Positions 13,850 to 61,172 of a stretch of DNA of 64,000 nt are shown here, piece after piece. The notes under the pieces were generated by a model, which was not told where the DNA came from, did not search any database, and was given only the letters and a program-made list of their open reading frames with translations. The stretch covers positions 4,216,001 through 4,280,000 of the forward strand of contig NZ_CP036262.1 of NCBI RefSeq assembly GCF_007741495.1, in the 5' to 3' direction. A program made the position numbers and the translations under genes. Source of the stretch: Roseimaritima multifibrata. GTDB taxonomy: Bacteria > Planctomycetota > Planctomycetia > Pirellulales > Pirellulaceae. Position 1 is the stretch's first letter. The number at the start of each line of letters is the position of its first letter.

Positions 13850-16807
13850 TTACTCAATCACGAACCACGACATTCCTTCGGCTGGAACGTTGACTGGAAT
13901 TTCTACCATGTAATTTCGATTCAGATTGTATTCGACGGTCTTCTCTTCGTTGCTGGTCACCATCGCGGTATCGGTCAGACCTGTGTAGTACAAATTCACT
14001 TTCAGCATCTTAGTGACCGGTTTCTTTAATGGGTTAAAGACGACAAGCATTCCTTTCTGCGGCAATTGCGGGTTCACATGCAGAACCCAATCCAGGTCCC
14101 GCCCATCGGCTCGACGTCCGTGAATCAGATCGGATTCCAGGATATCACGATAGCGTTTGAACCACTCAACCGCTCCCTTAACCATGTCACGCGTCGCTTC
14201 GGTGTCGTACAACCTTGGTCCACGGTAATGAGCCTGAACTCCCATCCCAAAATTGGAATACATCATTCGCTGATAGTGGTCGAGGTGTTGATGTAACGGT
14301 TCGATGGTCGCGGCAGCTCCTCCGCCATGGTACTGAGACAACGGCACGAACATCCATCCCATGCTAGGTGTCTTTGTCCAAGTCCCATCGTAAATATTTT
14401 GCCGACTATGGATGACTTGGTGCGCTCGCGGCAGCGACCAGTTCACCTCGCGGTATCCCATCCCACATTTATTGGCTCCGCTAAGGTAGTAATAATCGGG
14501 GACATTCATATAGACGCCCTCGCCTCGCAGATTGCGATAGAGCCCGGACATCAGTCGCCACTGCGTCCACCGCGAGTCTTGAATTCCGATCTGCAAAGGA
14601 GGTCGAGGCGTCACATCGATGTCACCTGGGTAGGACCCGTCGTTTTCAAACTGCGAGAACCCTGTAACCGCATAAAAATCCTGGATCGTTTGAATCCACT
14701 CCAGTCCCCATGGAGAAGTCACCGCCGGGCACTGCCCATGAGTCGGACGCATTCCTTCGGGGCTGACGATCATATTCGGAGACGCAACGCCACGTGACGA
14801 GAAGAGGGAGTAGCATCCCAGTTCAATCTTTTTCGCCGCTGCATATTGGGCAACCGCTTTCCATTGTGCGAGAAATTTTGGATCACGGTTTTCCATATTG
14901 AAACCACTCCCAAAGGAAAGAATGATCCCTTCGAAACCGACTTCCGCAGCCTGATCGATCGCGGCATGAACGCGTGCAGAATCGTTCGCCAACAGATGAT
15001 GGGTAAGAGGGTTCTCGGTAACCCATGGAGCAATCGTTCGATACATCCGTCGCAGCGCCAATCCACGCCGTTCGCGATTTGCATCGTCATAGACCAATTC
15101 AAAGACGCGAAAGCCTTCAAAAGATTTCCCGGCCGGAACGCGCTGAGCCGGGCCGTAGGTCGGTTCACAAACCAGCAAGCAAGGAGTCTGCCGCAAGTAA
15201 TTGACCTGAGTCGTATAGAGTGGATCGGTCCGCCAATGAACGGCATGCCGGTTTGCGTTTTCGTGATTGAAACCACCGAAGGCAAAATCGGTCTCTACAT
15301 GCAAATAATCGGGGTGAGGTATAGCGGCCCCCTCGCGTGTCTCGACCCAATTCGATTGCTCAACAAGTGCCAGCTCTTCACCTGTGAAGCGATCAACCGT
15401 GAGAATTTTTTCACTTTGATTGTGAACCGTTAGCCACTTGCTCATGACAGGAATGCCGTCGTACAGTTCGTAATGCACACTGATTCGAACCGGTTGTTCC
15501 TGTTGCTGATCGTTTAGTTTGCCGCGGCGTTCGATTTTCCAGCGTGCCACTTCATCTTGATCCGCCGCCCCAAGAACTCTGACCGACTGAATACGGCAAC
15601 GTGTTAGAGGCTCCGCATCCCCGGAATTGTCGGTCGCATTCCCCGAACGATCCATCTTGCCGACGCGCAGCGCGCGCGGTTTTCCTGGCGAATTTTCAAG
15701 TTCCACTTCAAACAGACGAACAAACTTAGGAGCTCGTTCACTTGCGACCGCTCCTTCACAGATCAACTTCAACCCGTCGATCTGCATTCGCAATTGGTAC
15801 GCATGCTCCGTATTCAATCCTCCATCTTTCCCGGCGAAGGAGGGCACCGACGCCAAGCGTTCGCGTCCATCGATTCTCAATTCGAATTGGCCATGTTCGC
15901 CTCGATCACCAGGGCGGAGATTCAGTTTAACAATCGAATTCTCGAAAACCCACGCCATCCCCGGTCCCCAGCTCGTCCCCACATCCGTGCCGGGATCAAT
16001 CAAACAACCAACCACCTCAGTCGACTCAGGCAACGCGCGTTCCGCAAAACAATATCCGTTTTGTAGTCCATAGATTTCCCCAGCCTTCCCTTCGTTCTCA
16101 AAGCTGGTGCGGGCATGCGCCTTAGACGAAACGACTTTCCAGTCGGCAGGAAGGCTTGCAAAATCCTCTTCCCAAAGGACGTCCCGACCGACTTCACTTC
16201 CCATCACCAAGTCCTCTCCCTGCTTGGGTAGGGCATAGTCCATCCGTAGCGAAACGCCTTGAGGCGGCCAAACGGAACCGGGAGCCGCACGCCTTCCCCG
16301 CCCCCAAGCAAATCGCTCCTCTGGAAGACCGATTTCAAAATCAATCAACTGAAAAGCGTTCGGATCGGTGCTCATCGCATCAAGCCATTCAGGCGTCAGA
16401 AATGCATGGTTTGGCTGCCCAACCAATCCACCGACGTCGTACGCAACTCCATCGATCGTCACACGTGCCTCAGGACGGACCGAGCGAAGCATCGATTGCC
16501 CCGTCATCAAGTTATCAAATGCAACGCACGCTCCATTGGGTTCGATACGCCAGACCCGCCGAATCAAGCCGTTGTCCAAGATCAAATCGCGGCCGTCCGT
16601 ACTGCGAAATGCCGAAGCCTTTAGAGAAGGCGTTTGAACCAGATAATCGTCGGGCAAAATACGCTCAACGAGCACGGGCAACTCCGCGTACCCGTCAAAC
16701 TCCTCCGCAACTGATTCGAAGGCACTTCCCGCAAGCACGCATAGCATGATCGCAAGTACGTACCGAAGCGGGCATGGTGGAGTCCTTCGCAACTTATCTT
16801 CAACCAT
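13850..16807 (-). CDS. Large secreted GH36-like (alpha-galactosidase-type) protein
   Basis: This 985-residue protein has an N-terminal signal segment (about residues 14-35, VLAIMLCVLAGSAFESVAE). The order of parts resembles clan-D glycosidases such as GH36: an N-terminal beta-sandwich (LDNGLIRRVWRIEPNGACVAFDNLMTGQSMLR), an inserted concanavalin-like block (about 205-395), a YDGIPVMSKWLTVHNQS strand pair, then a TIM-barrel section from about residue 600 (GFEGIILSFGSGFNME, GCYSLFSSRGV, FSQFENDGSYPGD) and a C-terminal beta domain. Asp in FENDGSYPGD is the best candidate for the nucleophile, but the usual GH36 W-D-x-K-W-D motif was not found, so catalysis is unproven. Start is ATG 16807; a GTG lies one codon earlier. 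It could instead be a non-catalytic relative. Confidence 0.55.
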   Translation of the reverse strand: MVEDKLRRTPPCPLRYVLAIMLCVLAGSAFESVAEEFDGYAELPVLVERILPDDYLVQTPSLKASAFRSTDGRDLILDNGLIRRVWRIEPNGACVAFDNLMTGQSMLRSVRPEARVTIDGVAYDVGGLVGQPNHAFLTPEWLDAMSTDPNAFQLIDFEIGLPEERFAWGRGRRAAPGSVWPPQGVSLRMDYALPKQGEDLVMGSEVGRDVLWEEDFASLPADWKVVSSKAHARTSFENEGKAGEIYGLQNGYCFAERALPESTEVVGCLIDPGTDVGTSWGPGMAWVFENSIVKLNLRPGDRGEHGQFELRIDGRERLASVPSFAGKDGGLNTEHAYQLRMQIDGLKLICEGAVASERAPKFVRLFEVELENSPGKPRALRVGKMDRSGNATDNSGDAEPLTRCRIQSVRVLGAADQDEVARWKIERRGKLNDQQQEQPVRISVHYELYDGIPVMSKWLTVHNQSEKILTVDRFTGEELALVEQSNWVETREGAAIPHPDYLHVETDFAFGGFNHENANRHAVHWRTDPLYTTQVNYLRQTPCLLVCEPTYGPAQRVPAGKSFEGFRVFELVYDDANRERRGLALRRMYRTIAPWVTENPLTHHLLANDSARVHAAIDQAAEVGFEGIILSFGSGFNMENRDPKFLAQWKAVAQYAAAKKIELGCYSLFSSRGVASPNMIVSPEGMRPTHGQCPAVTSPWGLEWIQTIQDFYAVTGFSQFENDGSYPGDIDVTPRPPLQIGIQDSRWTQWRLMSGLYRNLRGEGVYMNVPDYYYLSGANKCGMGYREVNWSLPRAHQVIHSRQNIYDGTWTKTPSMGWMFVPLSQYHGGGAAATIEPLHQHLDHYQRMMYSNFGMGVQAHYRGPRLYDTEATRDMVKGAVEWFKRYRDILESDLIHGRRADGRDLDWVLHVNPQLPQKGMLVVFNPLKKPVTKMLKVNLYYTGLTDTAMVTSNEEKTVEYNLNRNYMVEIPVNVPAEGMSWFVIE

Positions 16808-51877: not shown

Positions 51878-52654
51878 ATGAAACAAACCCTTCAGCTCCA
51901 AATTCAGACTCAGCCAAACGATAGCAGTTGCGGGCCAACTTGCTTGGCGGCGGTGTATCAATTTTGGAACGATCCAGTCGATTTGGATCAGCTGATTGGC
52001 TACTTTGGCGAATTGAGCGGCGGCGGGACCTTGGCGGTGCAGCTTGCCTGCCACGCTTTGCATCGCAACTATGACGCGAAGATCATTACGCACAACCTGC
52101 AAATCTTTGATCCAAGTTGGTTTTATGACCCACAGGGCCCTAGTCCCGAATGGTTGTCGGAAAAACTTCGACAGCAGTACGAACTAAAGAAAGAACGAGC
52201 CGACATCGATCGCGACCGATTGCGGGTCGCAACCGCGTCCTACTTGAAATTCCTTTCACTGGGAGGCCGGATCGCGATGCAGCCTGTCAGCGAAAGCTTG
52301 ATCATGGCCATCTTGAAGCAGGGGACACCGATCCTCTGTGGCCTAAGCGCGACTTACCTCTATCAAGAAAGACGGGAACGATCCCAGGCGTCGAACGAAC
52401 TCGGTGTTACCTCCGTTCCCGATGATATCGGTGGTGATCCAACCGGACACTTCGTCGTTCTGTACGGATACGATCCCGAAACCGAAAACGTACAGATCGC
52501 CGATCCCCTGCACCCCAATCCCATTGCACCGACCAACCATTACGTGGCGGCTCGATCGCGGGTGACAGCGGCAATCTTGCTGGGAATCCTGACTTACGAT
52601 GCTAACCTCCTTACCATCACACCGCGCGATAGCGCGAAGAGAGTTCCTGAATGA
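51878..52654 (+). CDS. Peptidase C39-like cysteine protease
   Basis: The 258-residue product has the papain-like C39 pattern with catalytic Cys18 in NDSSCGPTCLAAVYQF, His191 in GDPTGHFVVLYGYD and Asp209 in VQIADPLHPN. GGTLAVQLACHALHRNYDAKII follows the active-site helix as in bacteriocin-maturing C39 domains, but there is no ABC transporter part and no signal peptide, so it is a free cytosolic enzyme. Its stop overlaps the start of the RLAN-RimK gene (ATGA). In the operon with ATP-grasp and GCS2 ligases it may cleave or trim the conjugate they form. It is the first gene of the operon; the start could also be GTG five codons before. Confidence 0.8.
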   Translation: MKQTLQLQIQTQPNDSSCGPTCLAAVYQFWNDPVDLDQLIGYFGELSGGGTLAVQLACHALHRNYDAKIITHNLQIFDPSWFYDPQGPSPEWLSEKLRQQYELKKERADIDRDRLRVATASYLKFLSLGGRIAMQPVSESLIMAILKQGTPILCGLSATYLYQERRERSQASNELGVTSVPDDIGGDPTGHFVVLYGYDPETENVQIADPLHPNPIAPTNHYVAARSRVTAAILLGILTYDANLLTITPRDSAKRVPE

Positions 52655-54129
52655 GTGTCGTTCTCGTAGCCGAATCCAGAGACGACTGGTTAGGCGGTTT
52701 TGAGGGCGTTCAGACGATCGATCCAAGTGAGTACCTTTCACACTCCGATGGGGATCTTCGCCGTGGAACAAAAATTTACAACCTCTGCCGCTCCTATTCC
52801 TATCAGAGCATGGGGTATTACGTATCGTTGCTTGCCGAGGCTCGCGGCCAACGACCGATCCCCGACGTGATGACGATGCAGGACCTACGCGGAGTCGCCG
52901 CGGTGCGCCTGATCCCGCAGTCCCTTGAGGATGTGATCCAAAAATCATTACAGTCGCTGACCGCTGACGACTTCACGCTAAGCGTCTACTTCGGTGAAAA
53001 CCTTGCCAAGAAGTACGACCGCCTAGCGAGAGAGTTGTACGGCCTATTTCAAGCACCACTACTCCGCTTTCGATTTTCGCGAAGGAGCAAATGGAGACTA
53101 CGCCGGGCCTCCGCGATCGCGTTAAATGACATCCCGGTCAGCCATCGTGACTTTGTTGCATCCGCCGCCACACGGCACTTTGCCCGAGGCAATTCGCGCC
53201 GAGCCAAACGAGTCACCTCACGTTACGATTTGGCAATCCTTCATAATCCGGACGAAGGCCAATTGGCTCCGTCCGATCCCGTTGCACTCAAACGGATGCT
53301 TAAGGCGGCTGCACGTCTGGGGATCGCTGCAGAGTTGATCACACGAGAAGACGCGGGACGGTTGCTTGAATTTGACGCGTTGTTCATACGCGAAACCACG
53401 GCGATCAGCCACCACACGTATCAACTCGCCAGACGAGCTGAAGCGGCGGGGTTGGTTGTCATCGACGACCCGCTGTCGATCCTGCGTTGCACGAATAAGG
53501 TCTACCTCGCCGAACTGCTAAACCGGGCAAAAATACTAACACCGAAAACGATGGTCGTGCATCCTCGCAACATGGATCAAGTCGCCGAACAGCTGAAGTT
53601 CCCCTGTGTACTGAAACGCCCCGACAGTGCATTCAGCAAAGGGGTCGTCAAAGCAAACGATCCCGCCGAGTTAAGTGCTCGACTAGCTGAATTCTTTTGC
53701 GATTCGGAACTTGTCATCGCGCAGGAATACATGCGAACCGATTTCGACTGGCGAATCGGGATCCTAGACCAACGGCCTCTGTTCGCGTGCAAATACCACA
53801 TGGCCCGTGGTCACTGGCAAATCGCGAAACATGCAGGAGACGAACAGACCAAGTTCGGTTCGGTCGAAACATTGCCTGTCGAATTGGCGCCACGAAAAGC
53901 GGTTGCAGTGGCTCTTAAAGCCGCAAATTTGATTGGAGACGGTTTTTATGGAGTCGACGTTAAAGAAGCCGAGGGTAAGTTTTTTGTCATTGAGGTAAAC
54001 GACAATCCGAACCTCGATGCCGGCGTTGAAGATACGGTGCTGCGCGACGACCTTTACCGCCGCATCATGGAATCGTTTATTCGCCGGATCGAACAACGAA
54101 AACAGCCCAGCCTCCAGCGAATCCCCTAA
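52651..54129 (+). CDS. RimK-family ATP-grasp ligase with N-terminal RLAN domain
   Basis: The 492-residue product has an N-terminal RLAN part (about residues 1-170: VLVAESRDDWL, GTKIYNLCRSYSYQSMGYYVSLLAEARGQRPIP, VYFGENLAKKYDRLARELYGLFQAPLLRFRF) and a C-terminal ATP-grasp ligase: ALFIRETTAISHHTYQLARRAEAAGLVVIDDPLSILRCTNKVYLAELL, FPCVLKRPDSAFSKGVVKANDP, FYGVDVKEAEGKFFVIEVNDNPNLDAGVEDTVLRDDLYRRIMES. VIEVNDNPNLD is the metal-binding site. RimK-like enzymes form amide bonds, as in glutamate addition to proteins or peptides. The gene overlaps the C39-like gene by four bases and is 98 bases from the GCS2 gene. Confidence 0.9.
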   Translation: MSVVLVAESRDDWLGGFEGVQTIDPSEYLSHSDGDLRRGTKIYNLCRSYSYQSMGYYVSLLAEARGQRPIPDVMTMQDLRGVAAVRLIPQSLEDVIQKSLQSLTADDFTLSVYFGENLAKKYDRLARELYGLFQAPLLRFRFSRRSKWRLRRASAIALNDIPVSHRDFVASAATRHFARGNSRRAKRVTSRYDLAILHNPDEGQLAPSDPVALKRMLKAAARLGIAAELITREDAGRLLEFDALFIRETTAISHHTYQLARRAEAAGLVVIDDPLSILRCTNKVYLAELLNRAKILTPKTMVVHPRNMDQVAEQLKFPCVLKRPDSAFSKGVVKANDPAELSARLAEFFCDSELVIAQEYMRTDFDWRIGILDQRPLFACKYHMARGHWQIAKHAGDEQTKFGSVETLPVELAPRKAVAVALKAANLIGDGFYGVDVKEAEGKFFVIEVNDNPNLDAGVEDTVLRDDLYRRIMESFIRRIEQRKQPSLQRIP

Positions 54130-54227
54130 AACATGTTTCAGAGGCTCCCCTCCGCATAACAGCCCACAACGCGTTTCGTTTCAGTCCAAGTTGTCCCAGC
54201 CCTTATTTCGCTTCTTAAGGCTTATAG

Positions 54228-55487
54228 ATGTCGGTCCGCTCTTTTGGATTGTTTGAAGTTTTTGGCATTGAACTGGAATACATGCTGGTCGACCACCAGA
54301 CACTTTCAGTAAAACCGATTGCCGACCAGGTCCTGGCTGCAATGGCAGGGTTCTCGTCAGGCGACGTCGAACGGGGCGCGATCACATGGTCCAACGAATT
54401 GGCGCTTCATGTGATCGAACTTAAAACCACGCACCCGGTCAAATCACTGGCAAGTTTGGCTGGCATCCTTCAAGAAGCAATCGACGACATTCGACCGATC
54501 TTGGACCGATTCGGCGCTCGCTTGCTGCCTTCGGCTGTTCATCCCTGGATGAATGCAAGCCAGGAAACTCGTCTGTGGCCTCATGACTACCACCAGGTCT
54601 ACCAAGCCTATCACCGGATTTTTGACTGCCACGCCCATGGTTGGTCGAACGTCCAAAGCGTGCATTTGAATCTGCCCTTTCACACAGCGGAAGAGTTCGC
54701 TCAGTTGCATGCCGCCATCCGCCTGGTGTTACCGTTGCTGCCCGCGCTGGCGGCCAGTTCTCCCGTCCTGGAGGGAAGACTAACCGGACAACTAGATACT
54801 CGAATTTCGTTGTACGAAAATCACTGCCGGCAAGTCCCTTCATTGACGGGGCAGGTCATTCCCGAGGCAATATTTGACGAAGCGACCTACCGCAGCCAAA
54901 TTTTGAATCGGCTTAAAGAGGACATCGCCCCGCACGACCCTGACGGCGATTTGCATGTCGATTTTTTGAATGCCCGTGGTGCGATCGCTCGTTTCGATCG
55001 CGGGTCCATCGAAATTCGTTTGATGGATGTTCAGGAATTCCCGCAAGCCGACATTGCGATCTGCGCAGCAGTCGTCGCCGTCGTTCGAGCATTATGTAAA
55101 GAGCGTTGGCTGCCTACGGCTGAACAAATGCTGGTCAACACGACACTCCTAAAAACAATCTTAGACCAGACGAGTAAAACGGCTGAAAACACTGTGATTG
55201 ATGACGCCCTATTCCTCCGCCATTTCGGAATTCAGTCCAATTCGGTAACGGCAGGCCAATTATGGCGAGAGGTAATGAATTCGCTTCGCACCGACGATCC
55301 CCAGCTGAAGGCTCTCTTTCCGGAAATCGACGCATTGCTTTCCAAAGGCCCCCTAGCAAGCCGCATCGTGGCAGGGATTGGAGGTAACTTGACCAAGCCT
55401 CACCTACGGAGGGTCTACCAGGAGCTTGCAAATTGCCTGACCGAGGGGCGACCCTATTCACCTGCTCCAGCGAGTCAAAACCAATGA
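54228..55487 (+). CDS. GCS2-type carboxylate-amine ligase (glutamate-cysteine ligase family 2)
   Basis: The 419-residue product belongs to the YbdK/GCS2 superfamily of glutamine-synthetase-fold ligases: FEVFGIELEYMLVDHQTLSVKPIADQVL (metal-binding Glu pair in IELEYML near residue 13), AITWSNELALHVIELKTTHPVKSLASLAG, VQSVHLNLPFHTAEEFAQLHAAIRLVLPLLPALAASSPV (the family's S-x-H-x-N strand), and FDRGSIEIRLMDVQEFPQADIAI. Members ligate glutamate to an amine, and the natural substrate is often unknown. Its stop overlaps the start of the FGase (ATGA). With the RimK-type ligase it may build a glutamyl- or aminoacyl-conjugate. Confidence 0.9.
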   Translation: MSVRSFGLFEVFGIELEYMLVDHQTLSVKPIADQVLAAMAGFSSGDVERGAITWSNELALHVIELKTTHPVKSLASLAGILQEAIDDIRPILDRFGARLLPSAVHPWMNASQETRLWPHDYHQVYQAYHRIFDCHAHGWSNVQSVHLNLPFHTAEEFAQLHAAIRLVLPLLPALAASSPVLEGRLTGQLDTRISLYENHCRQVPSLTGQVIPEAIFDEATYRSQILNRLKEDIAPHDPDGDLHVDFLNARGAIARFDRGSIEIRLMDVQEFPQADIAICAAVVAVVRALCKERWLPTAEQMLVNTTLLKTILDQTSKTAENTVIDDALFLRHFGIQSNSVTAGQLWREVMNSLRTDDPQLKALFPEIDALLSKGPLASRIVAGIGGNLTKPHLRRVYQELANCLTEGRPYSPAPASQNQ

Positions 55488-56206
55488 CGACGCAGTCGAT
55501 CTCCGTGATCGTCACCTGTGAACATGGAGGCAATCGAATCCCATCTCCGTACGGCACGCTCTTTCGGTCGGCCATCGCACAACAGGAATTGCAAAGCCAC
55601 CGCGGGTACGACCCTGGAGCTCTCGCGATTGCGAAGATTCTTGCCAAAACATTTGCTGCCAACATTTTTCACAGCACGGTTTCGAGGTTGCTGGTCGACC
55701 TAAATCGATGCCTCGATTCCCCACAGTTGTTCTCGGAATTCGTTCCGGAGAGTGTCGAACAACGAAGTGAAATCCTTCGCCAGCACTACACTCCGTATCG
55801 ACGACAGGTTACCGATGAAGTTGCCGCAAAGATTAGCGAAGAGGGCAGGGTGGTCCACCTATCGATCCACACTTTCACCGGTCAGTTTCGCGGAGAAGAA
55901 CGAGACTTCGACATCGGAGTTTTATACGATCCCAAAAGGTGTTCAGAACGCAGGTTCGCGGAGAGAACGCTTGAATCGTTAAGGCTCCGAAGGTTCGCCG
56001 CGTTTGCCAACCGCCCCTACCTTGGGACCGATGATGGGCTGACAACCACGCTTAGGCAAACGTTTGCCGCCGATCAGTACATCGGCATAGAAATCGAAAT
56101 CAATAACCGAATCGCAAGTCTTAGCGAAGCGACTCAGACCGATTGGGCGAAGCGTATCGGATCCGCCTGCATGGACAGTTTGCTGGACGCTGCATCCGAA
56201 AGATAA
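55484..56206 (+). CDS. N-formylglutamate amidohydrolase-family protein (FGase 1)
   Basis: The start at ATG 55484 overlaps the GCS2 stop; 17 codons further upstream are open but belong to the GCS2 gene. The 240-residue product has the family blocks ISVIVTCEHGGNRIPSPYGTLF (zinc-binding Glu/His region), HRGYDPGALAIAKILA, HSTVSRLLVDLNRCLDSPQLFSEF and VVHLSIHTFTG. N-formylglutamate amidohydrolases hydrolyse the amide in N-formyl-L-glutamate, and related members act on other N-acyl amino acids. In this operon it may remove a blocking group or hydrolyse the amide formed by the ligases. A second, quite different member lies at 60386. Confidence 0.88.
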   Translation: MTTQSISVIVTCEHGGNRIPSPYGTLFRSAIAQQELQSHRGYDPGALAIAKILAKTFAANIFHSTVSRLLVDLNRCLDSPQLFSEFVPESVEQRSEILRQHYTPYRRQVTDEVAAKISEEGRVVHLSIHTFTGQFRGEERDFDIGVLYDPKRCSERRFAERTLESLRLRRFAAFANRPYLGTDDGLTTTLRQTFAADQYIGIEIEINNRIASLSEATQTDWAKRIGSACMDSLLDAASER

Positions 56207-56588
56207 AACGCAACTGCAGCCATTGGCGGATTTCAATTGGGATGCTGTGATGCAAGGCATTGGACCACAAAATCCCAACCCGCTGCGTCAGCGAGAGACA
56301 GCAATCACGGAAAGCGATCCCTCGCTTACGCATTTTGAAGTTGCGTTTTAGAGGTGATTGCTGTGGTCAATCGTCCTGCTTTCCGAACTCTTGCGGAGGC
56401 CTCAAATCATTCGGCTATTCCAGCACCTTTTTAGCTCCAAGTATCGAGAGTTCCGTTTCCGGGCTCGCCCTGGCGGACTCGCAATTGGCAGCTACCTTAT
56501 TGGGCGCTCAATAGGCTGTTCTCCGCTATCACCAAAATCGCAACGATAAACTTCCTGTTCCACACGGATTCGCGGTCGCCCAGTGAGA
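56207..56588. other. Convergent intergenic region with repeats
   Basis: This 382-base region separates the two convergent operons. It contains a copy of the 25220-type inverted repeat (56272-56332) and copy D of the palindromic element (56448-56548). No simple T-run terminator was seen. Confidence 0.6.
56448..56548 (+). repeat. Dispersed palindromic element, copy D (truncated)
   Basis: It starts GAGTTCCGTTTCCGGGCTCG, has AATTGGCAGCTACC and ends near GTTCTCCGC, without the right arm found in copies B and C. Confidence 0.6.
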
Positions 56589-57635
56589 CTACAGAGTCGC
56601 CAAATTTCGATTCAGCATATTGGCACCGTAATACCGTCGATACTTTGCCTTGCGTTCCAAGTCGTGAATGACGGTTTCTGTAAAATCGACGCCGGTGAGC
56701 GCTTTGCAGCTTCCCAAGCCTCCAGGGCTGAACACGTTGATCTCCATCAGCTTATCTTCCACGATATCCAAACCGACCAGGAACATTCCATCCTGCACCA
56801 GTTTCGGGCGAACCATTTCAACCAATTCCAACATTTTGTCCGTGACTTCTGCTTCGACTCCTTTACCGCCCGAGTGCATGTTGCTGCGAGCGTCGCCCGT
56901 GTCGTTTCGGCGGCGGAAAGCCGCGTATTTCCCGTCTTGTTGTAGCGGGCGACCATTCAGCACGAACATCCTGACATCTCCGTTGATGGCAGCGGGCAGG
57001 TACTCCTGGGCAATGCAGTAACCATCACGGATCACCGCTTCGATCATCTGATTCAAATTAGCTTTCTCATCTTCGCCGATCAAGAAGACGCTCTGCCCAC
57101 CCGACCCCTGCAACGGCTTAATGACAACCTTGTCGTGCTGCTCGGCGATGAACGCCTTAATGTCGTTGGCATCGCGACTAATGCAGGTCCGAGGCCGCAC
57201 CTGTTCTGGAAAATGTTGAAAGTAGGTCTTGTTTAGGGCGTTTGCCAAGCTGAATGGATCATTCAGCACGATCACCCCACGAGACGCGGCAAGCTGCCCA
57301 AAAAGAATCCCTGTGGTTTGAGCCCACGGTCGATCGGTCGCATCGTCGGAGGGATCGTTTCGAAGCAACAATACATCAAGATCATCTAGGCTGATCCGTT
57401 GGCTCGGCTCGTCCGGATCTTGAATCTTTCCAAGATACTCTTTGAGCGAATCATACTTGCCACCGTTAGCGGATCGAACATGTGCCTGTATCGATCCATC
57501 AGGTGCATAAATAAAGTCGCCGACCCCCAACAAAAAGCTCTCGTGCCCCATGTTCACGGCGGACATCGCCAATCGCGTAGTGGTGAAGCCCGATTGTTCA
57601 GTCATGACGTCATTGACAACAAATCCAATTTTCAT
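56589..57635 (-). CDS. Glutathione-synthetase-like ATP-grasp ligase
   Basis: The start is ATG 57635, overlapping the DUF1704 stop by one base (TGATG). The 348-residue product resembles GshB/RimK-type ligases: MKIGFVVNDVMTEQSGFTTTRLAMSAVNMGHE (N-terminal domain), NDPFSLANALNKTYFQHFPEQVRPRTCISRD, the ATP-grasp loop VVIKPLQGSGGQSVFLI, CIAQEYLPAAINGDVRMFVLNGRPL, and FLVGLDIVEDKLMEINVFSPGGLGSCKALTGVDFTETVIHDLERK (metal-binding INVFSP). The chemistry is carboxylate-amine ligation with ATP; the substrates are not known. It is the last gene of the minus-strand operon. Confidence 0.9.
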   Translation of the reverse strand: MKIGFVVNDVMTEQSGFTTTRLAMSAVNMGHESFLLGVGDFIYAPDGSIQAHVRSANGGKYDSLKEYLGKIQDPDEPSQRISLDDLDVLLLRNDPSDDATDRPWAQTTGILFGQLAASRGVIVLNDPFSLANALNKTYFQHFPEQVRPRTCISRDANDIKAFIAEQHDKVVIKPLQGSGGQSVFLIGEDEKANLNQMIEAVIRDGYCIAQEYLPAAINGDVRMFVLNGRPLQQDGKYAAFRRRNDTGDARSNMHSGGKGVEAEVTDKMLELVEMVRPKLVQDGMFLVGLDIVEDKLMEINVFSPGGLGSCKALTGVDFTETVIHDLERKAKYRRYYGANMLNRNLATL

Positions 57636-59584
57636 CAATCGGTATCCGTAAGGTTGAGGACCGACTTGCCACGAACAGCTTCAAGCCGTTCGCGACATTT
57701 AGGGTCGTCCCAGAAACGAGGCAATAATTTTGGCGGCGTGATAATGCCACGGCGCCGCAGTTCCTGAATGTAGGGAATGTGTTGCAAGCCGATCTTTCCG
57801 ACGTACAAGGGTTCAATGTCGTGCCCTGCTGCCAAGTATTCCAACAGATTTCGCAAGCCGCGAAGGTAGATCACATCTTTGGTTAATCCACCACCACGAA
57901 AGACCCTCAGCGTCGTGTTAAATGCCGACCGGTTCTTGAAACCGTAACGTTCGTTCAGTGTATCAACGACTTTTGCAAACGGTGTGCCGGAGACCAACAG
58001 GTCGGTCGCGATAACTCTTGCCGCCAAAGTACGCAGGCGACTGACCGTCAACCCGCCAACCAAATACTCTGCAAGAACCGCTAGCCCCTCTTGAAGTTCG
58101 TCGTAGCCAGCCAGCCCTGCGCTTAATTGCCTAAAGGGTTGGCAGCGACCATTAAAATAGGTCAGCAGATGCGTTCCAATTTCGTGATGCAGCAGTGGTC
58201 CAACGCGAGCGGCAGAAATATTGATCGAATCCGAGATGAGCAGTCGATCCTTCGACACCATAATCCCGGACGCAATCGTCTTGGAAATTTCAACACTTGG
58301 GCTGAATTCGCACATCTGTTTCTGGTAATAGCGGATCTCCTCGCGAGCAGCGGCTGCAAGCTGTGTCGCATTGACACACTCGGTCGCTGTCACGTCCTCT
58401 TTGCCGCACAGTCCAGTAGAGGCTCTAGCGCCTTTCTTTGACCGTTCGAGTATTGCCGTAGCAAGTTCCACAAGCGGATCCTCGGGGCCCCCGTAAAGCT
58501 GCAAACTGCTAGAGAGAAAATTGGAATACTGTGGATGATCGCCGATCGTCGTTTCCGGCAGATGTAAATCACGGAGCGACGTTAATTGCCGATCAATCTC
58601 GTCCTGTTTCTCCCAGAAAAGAAAAGCAAGGGTGGGGTCTTCGACTCGCTCGATTTCGATCGAAAACAACCTGCGTTTCAATAGGTTCGGATGATAAGGC
58701 AAGTGGCGGTATTGAAGGGGTAGCAGTTCGTTATCTGCGTCTTTGCAATAGTGATCACGAATCCTATCCGCATTGGTGGGAGTCACCTGGAGCAGGTAAT
58801 CGAAAGAATCCGATACATCACACAACTGTTTGTCGACCACTCGCGCCGCCTTGACCAATGCCGAAGGCCCAAACGTCTGATGGTGTGTATCGCTGGGCTT
58901 TTCATCCCCGCTAGTGAATTCGGCAACGGCTCTGCGATACGCCCGGGCGAGTTGTTGGCGCAGACGCTGCAGGACGAGAGGAAAGACCTTGCCGGAATCT
59001 CCATCAAGATAGAAAGGTCTAACTCTCAAGCAGATGGAACAATGGGTCGTTCCACTGGAATCCGACGATAGACCACGGCTGAGGATTGTCTCGCATTTTG
59101 TACTCCGATCGACGCGGGCCGGTCGATCGCCGACCTGAATCGCCGACAGTTCTTTCTCCATAACATCTAGCGTCGATGGCAAAAAGGACTCATCCACCGA
59201 AGAGATCTGAAAGTCGAACGCAAGCGTATCGTCAACCGTCACTTCAATCAGCAAGAAGAGACCGAAGTGCTCCTGCATCGCACCGCGAATCTGGTCTACA
59301 AGGTACGTAAGACCTTCGTCATGCGACGGTTCCCCAGACGCGAACAGATACGCAGCTTCGGTTGTAACCAACTGGTGATTAAGGTCGGTGCCGGCTGCGG
59401 CCGAATCCGCCCCTGACCGAAAAACACAAAGAAATGGCAATTGGCGATCCATACGCAATCGCCCGCCATTGGGCACATTCCTGCGGACTCGCTGATTCTT
59501 AGCCAAACGTTCACAGGATGCATCCGCAGTCGATTTGTAAGCCGATGTGATTTCAACCATATCGTTATTGCTGTCGCGTTTCAC
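57635..59584 (-). CDS. DUF1704 (QEGLA-motif) metallocarboxypeptidase-like protein
   Basis: The start is GTG 59584, with AAGGAG about 13 bases upstream; an ATG eight codons later (59560) is an alternative. The 649-residue product has the active site HHEIGTH (466-472) and the QEGLA motif (498-502) of TIGR02421/DUF1704 proteins, in the order RLLISDSINISAARVGPLLHHEIGTHLLTYFNG...DELQEGLAVLAEYLVGGL. The eukaryotic member MATCAP is a metallocarboxypeptidase that removes the C-terminal tyrosine of tubulin. The bacterial name 'flavohemoglobin expression-modulating' is historical. Here it lies between a FGase and an ATP-grasp ligase, where it may reverse the ligation by removing a terminal residue. Confidence 0.9.
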   Translation of the reverse strand: MKRDSNNDMVEITSAYKSTADASCERLAKNQRVRRNVPNGGRLRMDRQLPFLCVFRSGADSAAAGTDLNHQLVTTEAAYLFASGEPSHDEGLTYLVDQIRGAMQEHFGLFLLIEVTVDDTLAFDFQISSVDESFLPSTLDVMEKELSAIQVGDRPARVDRSTKCETILSRGLSSDSSGTTHCSICLRVRPFYLDGDSGKVFPLVLQRLRQQLARAYRRAVAEFTSGDEKPSDTHHQTFGPSALVKAARVVDKQLCDVSDSFDYLLQVTPTNADRIRDHYCKDADNELLPLQYRHLPYHPNLLKRRLFSIEIERVEDPTLAFLFWEKQDEIDRQLTSLRDLHLPETTIGDHPQYSNFLSSSLQLYGGPEDPLVELATAILERSKKGARASTGLCGKEDVTATECVNATQLAAAAREEIRYYQKQMCEFSPSVEISKTIASGIMVSKDRLLISDSINISAARVGPLLHHEIGTHLLTYFNGRCQPFRQLSAGLAGYDELQEGLAVLAEYLVGGLTVSRLRTLAARVIATDLLVSGTPFAKVVDTLNERYGFKNRSAFNTTLRVFRGGGLTKDVIYLRGLRNLLEYLAAGHDIEPLYVGKIGLQHIPYIQELRRRGIITPPKLLPRFWDDPKCRERLEAVRGKSVLNLTDTD

Positions 59585-59591
59585 TTGAATA

Positions 59592-60386
59592 CTATTGCTC
59601 CTTCATTGCCGTGAGCGCGTCACGCACTCCTGGCAAAGTCGATCTCAGTGCATTGTAAATAGCTTCGACCTCGCTTGGGTCGGCTTCTCCTTCCCATTCA
59701 TCCATGAAGAATTTTTTGAATTCAATCGAGATCGCGCAAACTTGCTTGGGAAAGGTTTGGTGAATCCATTCAGCGAAATGCCCTCCTAGAAATTTTACGT
59801 TCTCACGAACATCAAGATTGCGTCCACGGAAATCATAAGCCCGCAGGTCCGAGATAAACCGATCCACGACGGGCCCCCAGTATTCGCGATCCATCGTGCC
59901 AGTCCCGATATTCACCTCTGGGTTTTTCCTAGCATCCGCAGGAGGCCCATCCGCCCCATCGCGGCGGTGGTTGTACGTGTGCAAATCATAGACGACCACC
60001 TTGCCATATTCTTCAACCATTTCGCGAAGAAGCTCTTCGACATCTTCGTAGAATTGGTCGTATTCGGCCAACGATGCATCAATCATTTGCTGCTTAGGGG
60101 GGGTATCCCAAACCTTCATTCCCCAGGCATCGGCTGGCGTTTCATAGACCGCCTTATCTCGGGGACGATTTAGATCGACTTCAAATCGAGACCGCAGACC
60201 AACGATTTGCGTTTTCGCAATTTGAGTCCATTCGCCAGTGACCGGATCTTCTTCCCGGAGCTGCTGTTCCTCATCGATCGCCAAGTGGCGCTCGATGTTC
60301 TTACGCGTGTCGTGGCCGTTGTGGATCGCCGCCGCGACGACGGGCCCCGTGCCGCGCTGAAAAATGCAATGGGGTGAAAGTGACAC
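59592..60386 (-). CDS. N-formylglutamate amidohydrolase-family protein (FGase 2)
   Basis: The start is GTG 60386 with AGGA eight bases upstream. The 264-residue product has the family blocks VVAAAIHNGHDTRKNIERHLA, RFEVDLNRPRDKAVYETP, VVVYDLHTYNHRRDGADGPP, and VCAISIEFKKFFMDEWEG, the zinc-site pattern of FGase-like amidohydrolases. It differs much from FGase 1 at 55484 and is the first gene of the minus-strand operon, seven bases from the DUF1704 gene. Its 5' leader has a stable hairpin (about 60440-60508). Such members act on N-acyl amino acids; the real substrate here is unknown. Confidence 0.88.
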   Translation of the reverse strand: MSLSPHCIFQRGTGPVVAAAIHNGHDTRKNIERHLAIDEEQQLREEDPVTGEWTQIAKTQIVGLRSRFEVDLNRPRDKAVYETPADAWGMKVWDTPPKQQMIDASLAEYDQFYEDVEELLREMVEEYGKVVVYDLHTYNHRRDGADGPPADARKNPEVNIGTGTMDREYWGPVVDRFISDLRAYDFRGRNLDVRENVKFLGGHFAEWIHQTFPKQVCAISIEFKKFFMDEWEGEADPSEVEAIYNALRSTLPGVRDALTAMKEQ

Positions 60387-60508: not shown

Positions 60509-60701
60509 AAGCGCTGGGTCCACAACTGCCAATCCGATCGATTCCCGCTCAACTTAGGGCCGTTGGGCTACGCAAACCGGGCTAAATGACCATCGGCACA
60601 TACTTTGCTTATCCATTTCAGCATTCCCCGCTGCCGTCGGAAGATGTCACGGGTGCCGATAATTTTTCATGACTAATTCCAAAGCTAACAGGATAACGAA
60701 A

Positions 60702-61172
60702 ATGTCTTACGAAACGAAAACCGATTTGAACGACACGACCATCGAAAAACTGCAAAAATTGATTCAGGCAAACATCGACGCTTGTAACGGATTCCGTGAA
60801 TCAGCCGAAGAATTAGACGATCCAGCTTTGTCAGCTCTTTTTCGTGAACTGGGCGATCAACGCTCGGAGTTGGCTACGGAATTACAGGAGTATGTTGTCT
60901 TCAACGGAGAGGTACCCGAAGACGACGGCAGTGTTGCCGCGAAGACCCATCGCATTTGGATCAACATCCGAGCCAAATTGAATGGCGGAGATCCCTATGT
61001 CATTTTGATCGAAGCCGAACGAGGCGAAGACCACGCAAAAGCAGCCTACGAAGATGTATTGAAGGAGACCGCCGGCAGCGCGATGAATGACGTCCTCACA
61101 CGACAATATCGGGTCGTCAAAGCGGGGCACGATAAAGTCCGAGATCTGCGAGATTCATTCGCCAAGAAATAG
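60702..61172 (+). CDS. DUF2383/PA2169-family four-helix-bundle protein
   Basis: The start at ATG 60702 (MSYETKTDLNDTTIEKL) is preceded by AGGATAACG; an upstream ATG at 60669 has no such site. The 156-residue product is helical with the ferritin-like DUF2383 pattern: KLQKLIQANIDACNGFRESAEELDDPALSALFRELGDQRSELATELQEYVV, then a second pair of helices ending NDVLTRQYRVVKAGHDKVRDLRDSF. Members have conserved carboxylates and histidine in ferritin-like positions; Glu57 and Glu65 here are candidates, but metal binding is unproven. It is transcribed alone as far as can be seen. Confidence 0.8.
   Translation: MSYETKTDLNDTTIEKLQKLIQANIDACNGFRESAEELDDPALSALFRELGDQRSELATELQEYVVFNGEVPEDDGSVAAKTHRIWINIRAKLNGGDPYVILIEAERGEDHAKAAYEDVLKETAGSAMNDVLTRQYRVVKAGHDKVRDLRDSFAKK

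Follow-up and report, generated by a model that had tools for sequence, protein, structure and literature searches.

In the tubulin tyrosination cycle, the ATP-grasp enzyme is TTL, and the present name of the DUF1704 family, MATCAP, has been taken from the human tubulin carboxypeptidase. Synthesis of the osmolyte NAGGN, which goes with growth at high salt, involves an asparagine-synthase-like enzyme and genes for a ligase, an acetyltransferase and a peptidase around a short acylated peptide. RLAN-RimK ligases, GCS2 proteins and peptidases were reportedly linked by gene neighbourhood by Iyer et al. in 2009. In Pseudomonas, RimK and RimB are described as an ATP-grasp glutamate ligase and a retropepsin-like protease, respectively, and the same source presents the rlo operon of Pseudomonas aeruginosa, which encodes the protease RloA, RloB and the ATP-grasp protein RloC and has an osmotic-stress phenotype (PMC12239564). 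The principle of pairing an ATP-grasp ligase with a peptidase is already known, from RimK/RimB (PMC12239564) and, partly as general background, from TTL and MATCAP (PMC10499314). Here we describe seven genes that form two convergent operons in a 64-kb stretch (the window) of the 7.2-Mb genome of Roseimaritima multifibrata (contig NZ_CP036262.1). They are two independent cassettes, each with a gene order conserved across phyla. Our tentative reading is that each cassette builds and trims small-molecule amide conjugates, cassette II doing so in the low-salt response. The seven genes are as follows.

51878..52654, plus strand: cassette I, free C39-like cysteine peptidase, 258 amino acids (Pfam C39_2, 39.3 bits)
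52651..54129, plus strand: cassette I, RLAN domain with RimK-type ATP-grasp ligase, 492 amino acids (Pfam RLAN, 156 bits; RimK, 41 bits)
54228..55487, plus strand: cassette I, GCS2 carboxylate-amine ligase, 419 amino acids (Pfam GCS2, 99 bits)
55484..56206, plus strand: cassette I, FGase1, 240 amino acids (Pfam, 92 bits)
56589..57635, minus strand: cassette II, GshB-like ATP-grasp ligase, 348 amino acids (Pfam GSH-S_ATP, 170 bits)
57635..59584, minus strand: cassette II, two-domain protein with predicted degenerate FGase and MATCAP domains, 649 amino acids (Pfam MATCAP, 278 bits)
59592..60386, minus strand: cassette II, FGase2, 264 amino acids (Pfam, 71 bits)

All seven genes were found where the initial annotation had placed them, and in a Pfam scan of the window proteins each of the seven families scored above its cut-off. 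Direct reading also confirmed the five junctions listed there: on the plus strand, the C39 and RLAN genes share ATGA, 98 bases lie between the RLAN and GCS2 genes, and the GCS2 and FGase1 genes share ATGA; on the minus strand, 7 bases separate FGase2 from the MATCAP gene, which meets the GshB-like gene in TGATG. The start of the GshB-like gene is most likely the ATG within TGATG, at 57635; the alternative TTG at 57638 would yield a protein of 349 amino acids. The count of four hydrolases was fair, except that one of them, the MATCAP protein, is predicted to have a degenerate FGase domain in addition.

The spread of cassette II was followed with a MATCAP alignment scan of one genome per species for 84,980 species, which returned at least 551 relatives. 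The named cassette-II loci are the best 80 of these and are therefore biased to close relatives; 10 kb were requested per side, and many contigs were shorter. According to the record titles they span Planctomycetota, Bacteroidota, Pseudomonadota, Campylobacterota, Acidobacteriota, Gemmatimonadota and others (L and G numbers below denote loci and genomes). FGase2 is located directly upstream and GshB directly downstream of MATCAP in 47 of the 67 loci with room on both sides; GshB was found within 3.5 kb in 75/80 loci and FGase2 in 59/80. In Sinorhizobium meliloti ml28 the trio lies on pSymB, annotated as N-formylglutamate amidohydrolase, QEGLA motif protein and glutathione synthase; strain 2011 of the same species has a MATCAP match on NC_020560, a record of the pSymB type, and MATCAP relatives occur in 127 plasmid records, some of which match the peptidase domain only. 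FGase and MATCAP are fused in G095 (L147) and Photobacterium sp. GJ3 (L241), both confirmed by Pfam, and, by our own models, in Vibrio sp. HDW18 (L242); the fusion in L154 is a degenerate version. FGase2 is missing in 15 loci with room, and an AstE/AspA-type gene is present within 300 bases in ten of the 15 and not in any of the remaining 65 loci; three of the ten are Pfam-confirmed, the same three that were used to build the AstE model. Two or three GshB-like open reading frames were found in ten loci (pieces of one gene in L175 and L203, partly partial copies in L168 and L169), and two MATCAP genes in three of the 80. Paralogues of the GshB-like gene, two or three per locus, are present in L142, L151, L155, L162, L166, L170, L179 and L182, some together with two MATCAP genes, one L155 copy being in pieces, an arrangement that would suit stepwise lengthening of the product. 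Short MATCAP proteins (~430 amino acids, without the FGase-like half; L048-L053 and L243) had no cassette partners alongside.

Cassette I was compared in 35 planctomycete RLAN loci, 15 from the other relatives with RLAN and 20 from the 75 RLAN-bearing phylum genomes, partly picked for long open reading frames. GCS2 is encoded in 29 of them, C39 in 28 and FGase1 in 16, some loci lying at contig ends. Nine of the 14 RLAN-bearing cassette-II records discussed below were fetched; all nine have the order RLAN - GCS2 - FGase1, with C39 before RLAN in eight. In two added plasmid RLAN loci (L239, L245) neither GCS2 nor FGase1 was seen. RLAN-RimK and GCS2 are fused into a protein of ~1000 residues in G182, G207 and G235 (Pfam was run on the G235 protein). 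In the window, the RLAN-RimK protein exceeds the cut-offs of PF14401 (156 vs 25 bits) and PF08443 (41 vs 21 bits), and a profile search returned no solved structure covering its RLAN part (the first ~235 residues; window 52651-53350). The C39-like peptidase conserves C18, H191 and D209, which we take to be the catalytic triad, and in FGase1 at least 90% of 17 sequences share H14, H125, H129, E203 and E205. In one cassette-I locus an MgtE gene immediately precedes the cassette. In Azospirillum, a GNAT domain is fused to the C39-like peptidase directly before RLAN; in some planctomycetes GNAT genes adjoin RLAN, one being fused to a carbon-nitrogen hydrolase. The GNAT genes resemble NAGGN synthesis, from which these loci differ in that its asparagine-synthase-like enzyme was not seen here.

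Each of the two gene orders is found again in distant genomes and so is not due to chance, and the two kinds of fusion (RLAN-RimK with GCS2; FGase with MATCAP) support joint action inside each cassette. The proposal that the families are linked stands for each operon taken singly, given an order conserved over several phyla and the fusions; an absence of shared neighbourhood, named at the outset as evidence against it, is true between the operons, where the idea is not supported, and untrue within them.

The initial annotation had treated all seven genes as one system, and a joint seven-enzyme pathway with the operons as its halves was weighed accordingly. RLAN is present in 16 and MATCAP in 13 of 60 relatives (the window's genome included), and RLAN occurs in 5/7 relatives with a long MATCAP vs 16/60 overall (one-sided p 0.012, kinship uncorrected). 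Among 294 genomes of the phylum, with RLAN in 75 and MATCAP in 47, RLAN and any MATCAP coincide in 21 vs 12 expected (p 0.0014, kinship uncorrected), an excess given little weight because families repeat in the sample. For RLAN and long MATCAP, however, the same 294 genomes gave 5 observed and 4.1 expected (p 0.39), that is, chance. A further check covered 46 of the 80 named loci, chosen for longer contigs, and two plasmid loci; of the 47 records counted, 14 have RLAN and 33 have none, although two of the latter are single plasmids and the genomes may be incomplete. Among the genomes compared, the cassettes are adjacent only in that of the window. In G001 and G002 (same genus), G016 and G022, cassette I and a long MATCAP are either separated by more than 1 Mb or placed on separate contigs; elsewhere on one contig, the nearest approaches of RLAN and MATCAP among those listed are ~104 kb (G075) and 110 kb (G022), the MATCAP being a short one in each case. 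The other cassette is absent from every cassette locus fetched, many of the genomes being fragmented, and for no open reading frame of the 80 cassette-II loci was a cassette-I model the top match. On neighbourhood and co-occurrence we reject a single joint system, which is left with very little probability.

The same neighbourhood could suggest glutathione biosynthesis, with GCS2 as gamma-glutamylcysteine ligase and the GshB-like protein as glutathione synthetase. The GCS2 gene is the sole GCS2 match in the window's genome and lies close to its one strong GSH-S_ATP gene (three weaker GSH-S_ATP matches are elsewhere), and the closest solved structure to the GshB-like ligase by sequence is E. 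coli GshB. However, GCS2 scored 40.8 bits with the glutamate-cysteine ligase model TIGR02048 (gshA_cyano; cut-off 249), and the GshB-like ligase stayed below both glutathione synthase cut-offs (TIGR01380, 182 vs 299 bits; PRK05246, 204 vs 272 bits), exceeding that of the broader subfamily PRK12458 (456 vs 408 bits). Moreover, two or three full GshB genes are present in some cassette-II loci, and the GCS2 and GshB-like genes belong to different cassettes that are neighbours only in this genome. Because of the model cut-offs and the separate travel of the two genes, we consider glutathione synthesis highly improbable.

The MATCAP protein is predicted to consist of a degenerate FGase fold (residues ~38-226) and a MATCAP-type zinc peptidase (~264-649) with its catalytic residues kept. 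The latter matches PF08014 with 278 bits vs a cut-off of 27; its zinc motif H467-E468-xxx-H472 and the third-ligand glutamate E499 are invariant in 25 and in 39 aligned sequences, its predicted structure has the MATCAP fold, and human MATCAP (7z5g) is the closest solved structure. The N-terminal domain is predicted to have the FGase fold, and in hhalign, with the L147 and L154 sequences left out, it matched FGase2 at E 1.1e-5. In FGase2 itself, H22, E45-E46-D47, H136 and E222 are invariant in 26 sequences; H22, E45-D47, H136 and E222 presumably serve as metal ligands, and all of them are retained in the fusions L147 and L241. In five aligned N-terminal domains, E45-D47 and H136 of the FGase2 type are absent from all, and H22 from the three with the N-terminus included, the L228 and L211 sequences being without their first ~20 residues. 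The E222 position is replaced in the window, L159 and L174, and is a glutamate in L228 and L211. Neither FGase reached the cut-off of the HutG deformylase model TIGR02017 (278.75 bits; FGase1, 15.3; FGase2, 24.5).

The kinship with human MATCAP raises the possibility of protein tail editing, in which the ATP-grasp enzyme would add residues to a protein C-terminus and MATCAP (or C39) would remove them, as RimK/RimB act on ribosomal protein S6 and TTL/MATCAP on tubulin. Against it, an FGase-type enzyme is fused to or located beside MATCAP, with AstE/AspA where FGase2 is missing, and the members after which these families are named act on small N-acyl amino acids. In addition, neighbour clustering, from which proteins of fewer than 80-100 residues were left out and in which several clusters were shadow reading frames opposite core genes, did not turn up a putative substrate protein that accompanies cassette II across phyla. 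Cassette II shares with the tubulin cycle an ATP-grasp ligase and a zinc carboxypeptidase of the MATCAP fold; unlike that cycle, it has FGase2 and a predicted degenerate FGase domain, and its ligase is of the GshB type, not the TTL type. RimK/RimB is an established ligase-peptidase pair and, like the cassettes described here, combines a cytosolic ATP-grasp ligase and a reversing protease in one operon (PMC12239564). Here, by contrast, the peptidase folds are C39 and MATCAP zincin, with an added FGase, an extra RLAN domain and GCS2; a retropepsin-like partner protease of the RimK/RimB type is not in the window operon, where the partners of RLAN-RimK are of the C39, GCS2 and FGase families. The rlo operon is also a ligase-protease operon, the osmotic-stress phenotype belonging to rlo itself; it differs in its secreted aspartic protease and membrane transglutaminase-like protein, and as described in that source only the RimK-like ATP-grasp is common with the seven families (PMC12239564). 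We regard protein tail editing as possible, and rank it second.

The first place goes, still tentatively, to small-molecule conjugates. A build-and-remove logic, as initially proposed, would fit each cassette, since each combines one or more ligases with predicted amide hydrolases whose family residues are conserved. The names of FGase, AstE and AspA refer to N-acylated acidic amino acids, suggesting that the cassette-II substrate contains a unit of this kind. In cassette II, the GshB-like ATP-grasp enzyme would join an amine or amino acid to the carboxylate of an acidic, N-acylated or gamma-linked amino-acid unit; the MATCAP domain would take off the carboxy-terminal residue; and FGase2, or its AstE/AspA-type substitute, would remove the acyl group or cleave the amide that is left. 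The likely part of the degenerate FGase domain is to bind substrate or to pair with FGase2. In cassette I, RLAN-RimK and GCS2 would belong to a single pathway and probably extend the same amide-linked product, which the C39 cysteine peptidase and FGase1 would disassemble. We infer the product to be an amide-linked acidic amino-acid conjugate, and likewise infer the order of the reactions, a shared small-molecule substrate of both halves and osmotic regulation in the window's organism.

Ligases may also serve in catabolism: PuuA glutamylates putrescine, and in amine or peptide catabolism by activation the ligase would cap an amine and the hydrolases would free the cap after the substrate is processed. 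Expression data bear on this and on the preferred reading alike. In Photobacterium damselae at 1% vs 3% NaCl, 'glutathione synthase GshB' (RS17020) is reported up 38.4-fold and 'QEGLA' (RS17025) up 27.5-fold; a 'RimK' (RS00405) is up 52-fold at low salt in Table 2, which does not indicate the RLAN type (PMC10308900). RS17020 and RS17025 are most likely cassette II, because the two tags follow each other and, in a congener, a GshB-like gene immediately precedes the FGase-MATCAP fusion. This annotation and the congener point to a most likely role of cassette II in responding to low external salt. The joint rise of ligase and hydrolase genes, with gamma-glutamylputrescine oxidase and agmatinase also up in the same table (PMC10308900), agrees with amine catabolism; on the other hand, neither cassette was seen to have an oxidase gene as a neighbour across phyla; a gene judged SDR-like by eye is present in 6/80 loci. 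We therefore place amine catabolism third and consider it unlikely.

The neighbourhood of cassette II includes membrane transport genes. MscS genes were found in 15/80 cassette-II loci vs 0/35 RLAN loci (p 0.005) and in 0/8 short-MATCAP loci; four are confirmed by Pfam, three of these lying within 50 bases of cassette II, and in L186 the match at 13873 is by our own model alone, the Pfam-scanned neighbour there being an AAA protein. CorA-type magnesium-transporter genes are present in 5/80 loci, three of the five being in the model; as it was built from the same loci, they are not independent evidence. CorA-type genes were seen near cassette II in L162, L163, L165 and L186 (Pfam-confirmed in L163 only), an amino-acid-permease-type gene in L165, and divergent sigma-54 regulators precede the cassette in L162 and L217.

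Several points weigh against small-molecule conjugates in a low-salt response. First, characterised MATCAP enzymes act on protein tails, as far as PMC10499314 presents them, and this favours protein tail editing. Second, the Photobacterium tags are tied to cassette II by annotation and congener, not by sequence, and the salinity data concern Photobacterium and cassette II; a classical osmolyte product would predict the ligase to rise at high, not low, salt. Third, the control loci for MscS come exclusively from planctomycetes, unlike the cassette-II loci, and MscS occurs in only 3/24 phylum-panel cassette-II loci; the loci scanned had themselves supplied the members for the MscS, CorA and AstE models. 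Finally, the cassette is not uniform: GshB is absent from two loci with room, five such loci have neither FGase2 nor AstE, and the FGase part of the Vibrio sp. HDW18 fusion (L242) no longer has H136 and D47, a GshB-like gene not being detected in 21 kb of this locus. The AstE/AspA loci come from related Bacteroidota in nine cases and from Magnetococcales in one.

A broader proposal is that cassette II is a bacterial make-and-trim cycle with the enzyme kinds of tubulin-tail editing, acting on a short acidic peptide or protein tail in a pan-bacterial low-salinity response, and that eukaryotic MATCAP was derived from such a cassette. We consider this rather unlikely, somewhat less probable than protein tail editing and more so than amine catabolism. 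New here are the split into two multi-phylum cassettes, the predicted degenerate FGase domain, the fusions, the exchange of FGase2 and AstE, and the probable low-salt link; no description of the FGase-MATCAP-GshB trio was found among the titles and abstract openings that surfaced, which is not a claim of its absence from print. If the preferred reading is true, it points to an unrecognised conjugate built and trimmed by bacteria when salt drops, and places the MATCAP peptidase fold in a bacterial context. The names given to cassette-II genes ('glutathione synthase', 'flavohemoglobin expression-modulating QEGLA motif protein', 'N-formylglutamate amidohydrolase') probably mislead, and on the preferred reading the 38-fold induction of 'GshB' in Photobacterium would probably be unrelated to glutathione.

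Two other identities were rejected. An anti-phage defence system was dismissed, PADLOC models giving no family for any of the seven proteins at E 0.001. As to a phage or mobile origin, 50,697 phage records gave no match to RLAN and one weak match to MATCAP, covering 24% of the query. In viral contigs, scans with the whole MATCAP protein and with the RLAN domain alone found no relative; the RLAN-RimK alignment found nine loci, L256 matching nearly the whole query and the rest the ATP-grasp part only. L256 is an 83-kb contig of a viral catalogue with a nearly full RLAN-RimK relative, 44% identical, and may be host sequence.

One further gene lies next to cassette II in the window and is probably not part of the core:

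60669..61172, plus strand: DUF2383/TIGR02284 four-helix-bundle gene, divergent from cassette II

It was considered as a conserved partner or substrate. It adjoins cassette II in G001, G002, G016, the window and one of the 80 named loci (Rhodopirellula maiorica), and it is also found ~2.7 kb from cassette I in G009, a genome without MATCAP; it was dropped because it is rare beside cassette II and present in the MATCAP-free G009. Between the convergent operons no terminators or sigma-70 promoters were found, with 0.5-1 expected by chance, so that nothing follows from their absence. A sigma-54-like site with one mismatch is located at 60594-60609 on the plus strand, ~60 bases upstream of the DUF2383 gene; the window has 32 sigma-54-like matches with up to two mismatches vs 17.7 expected.

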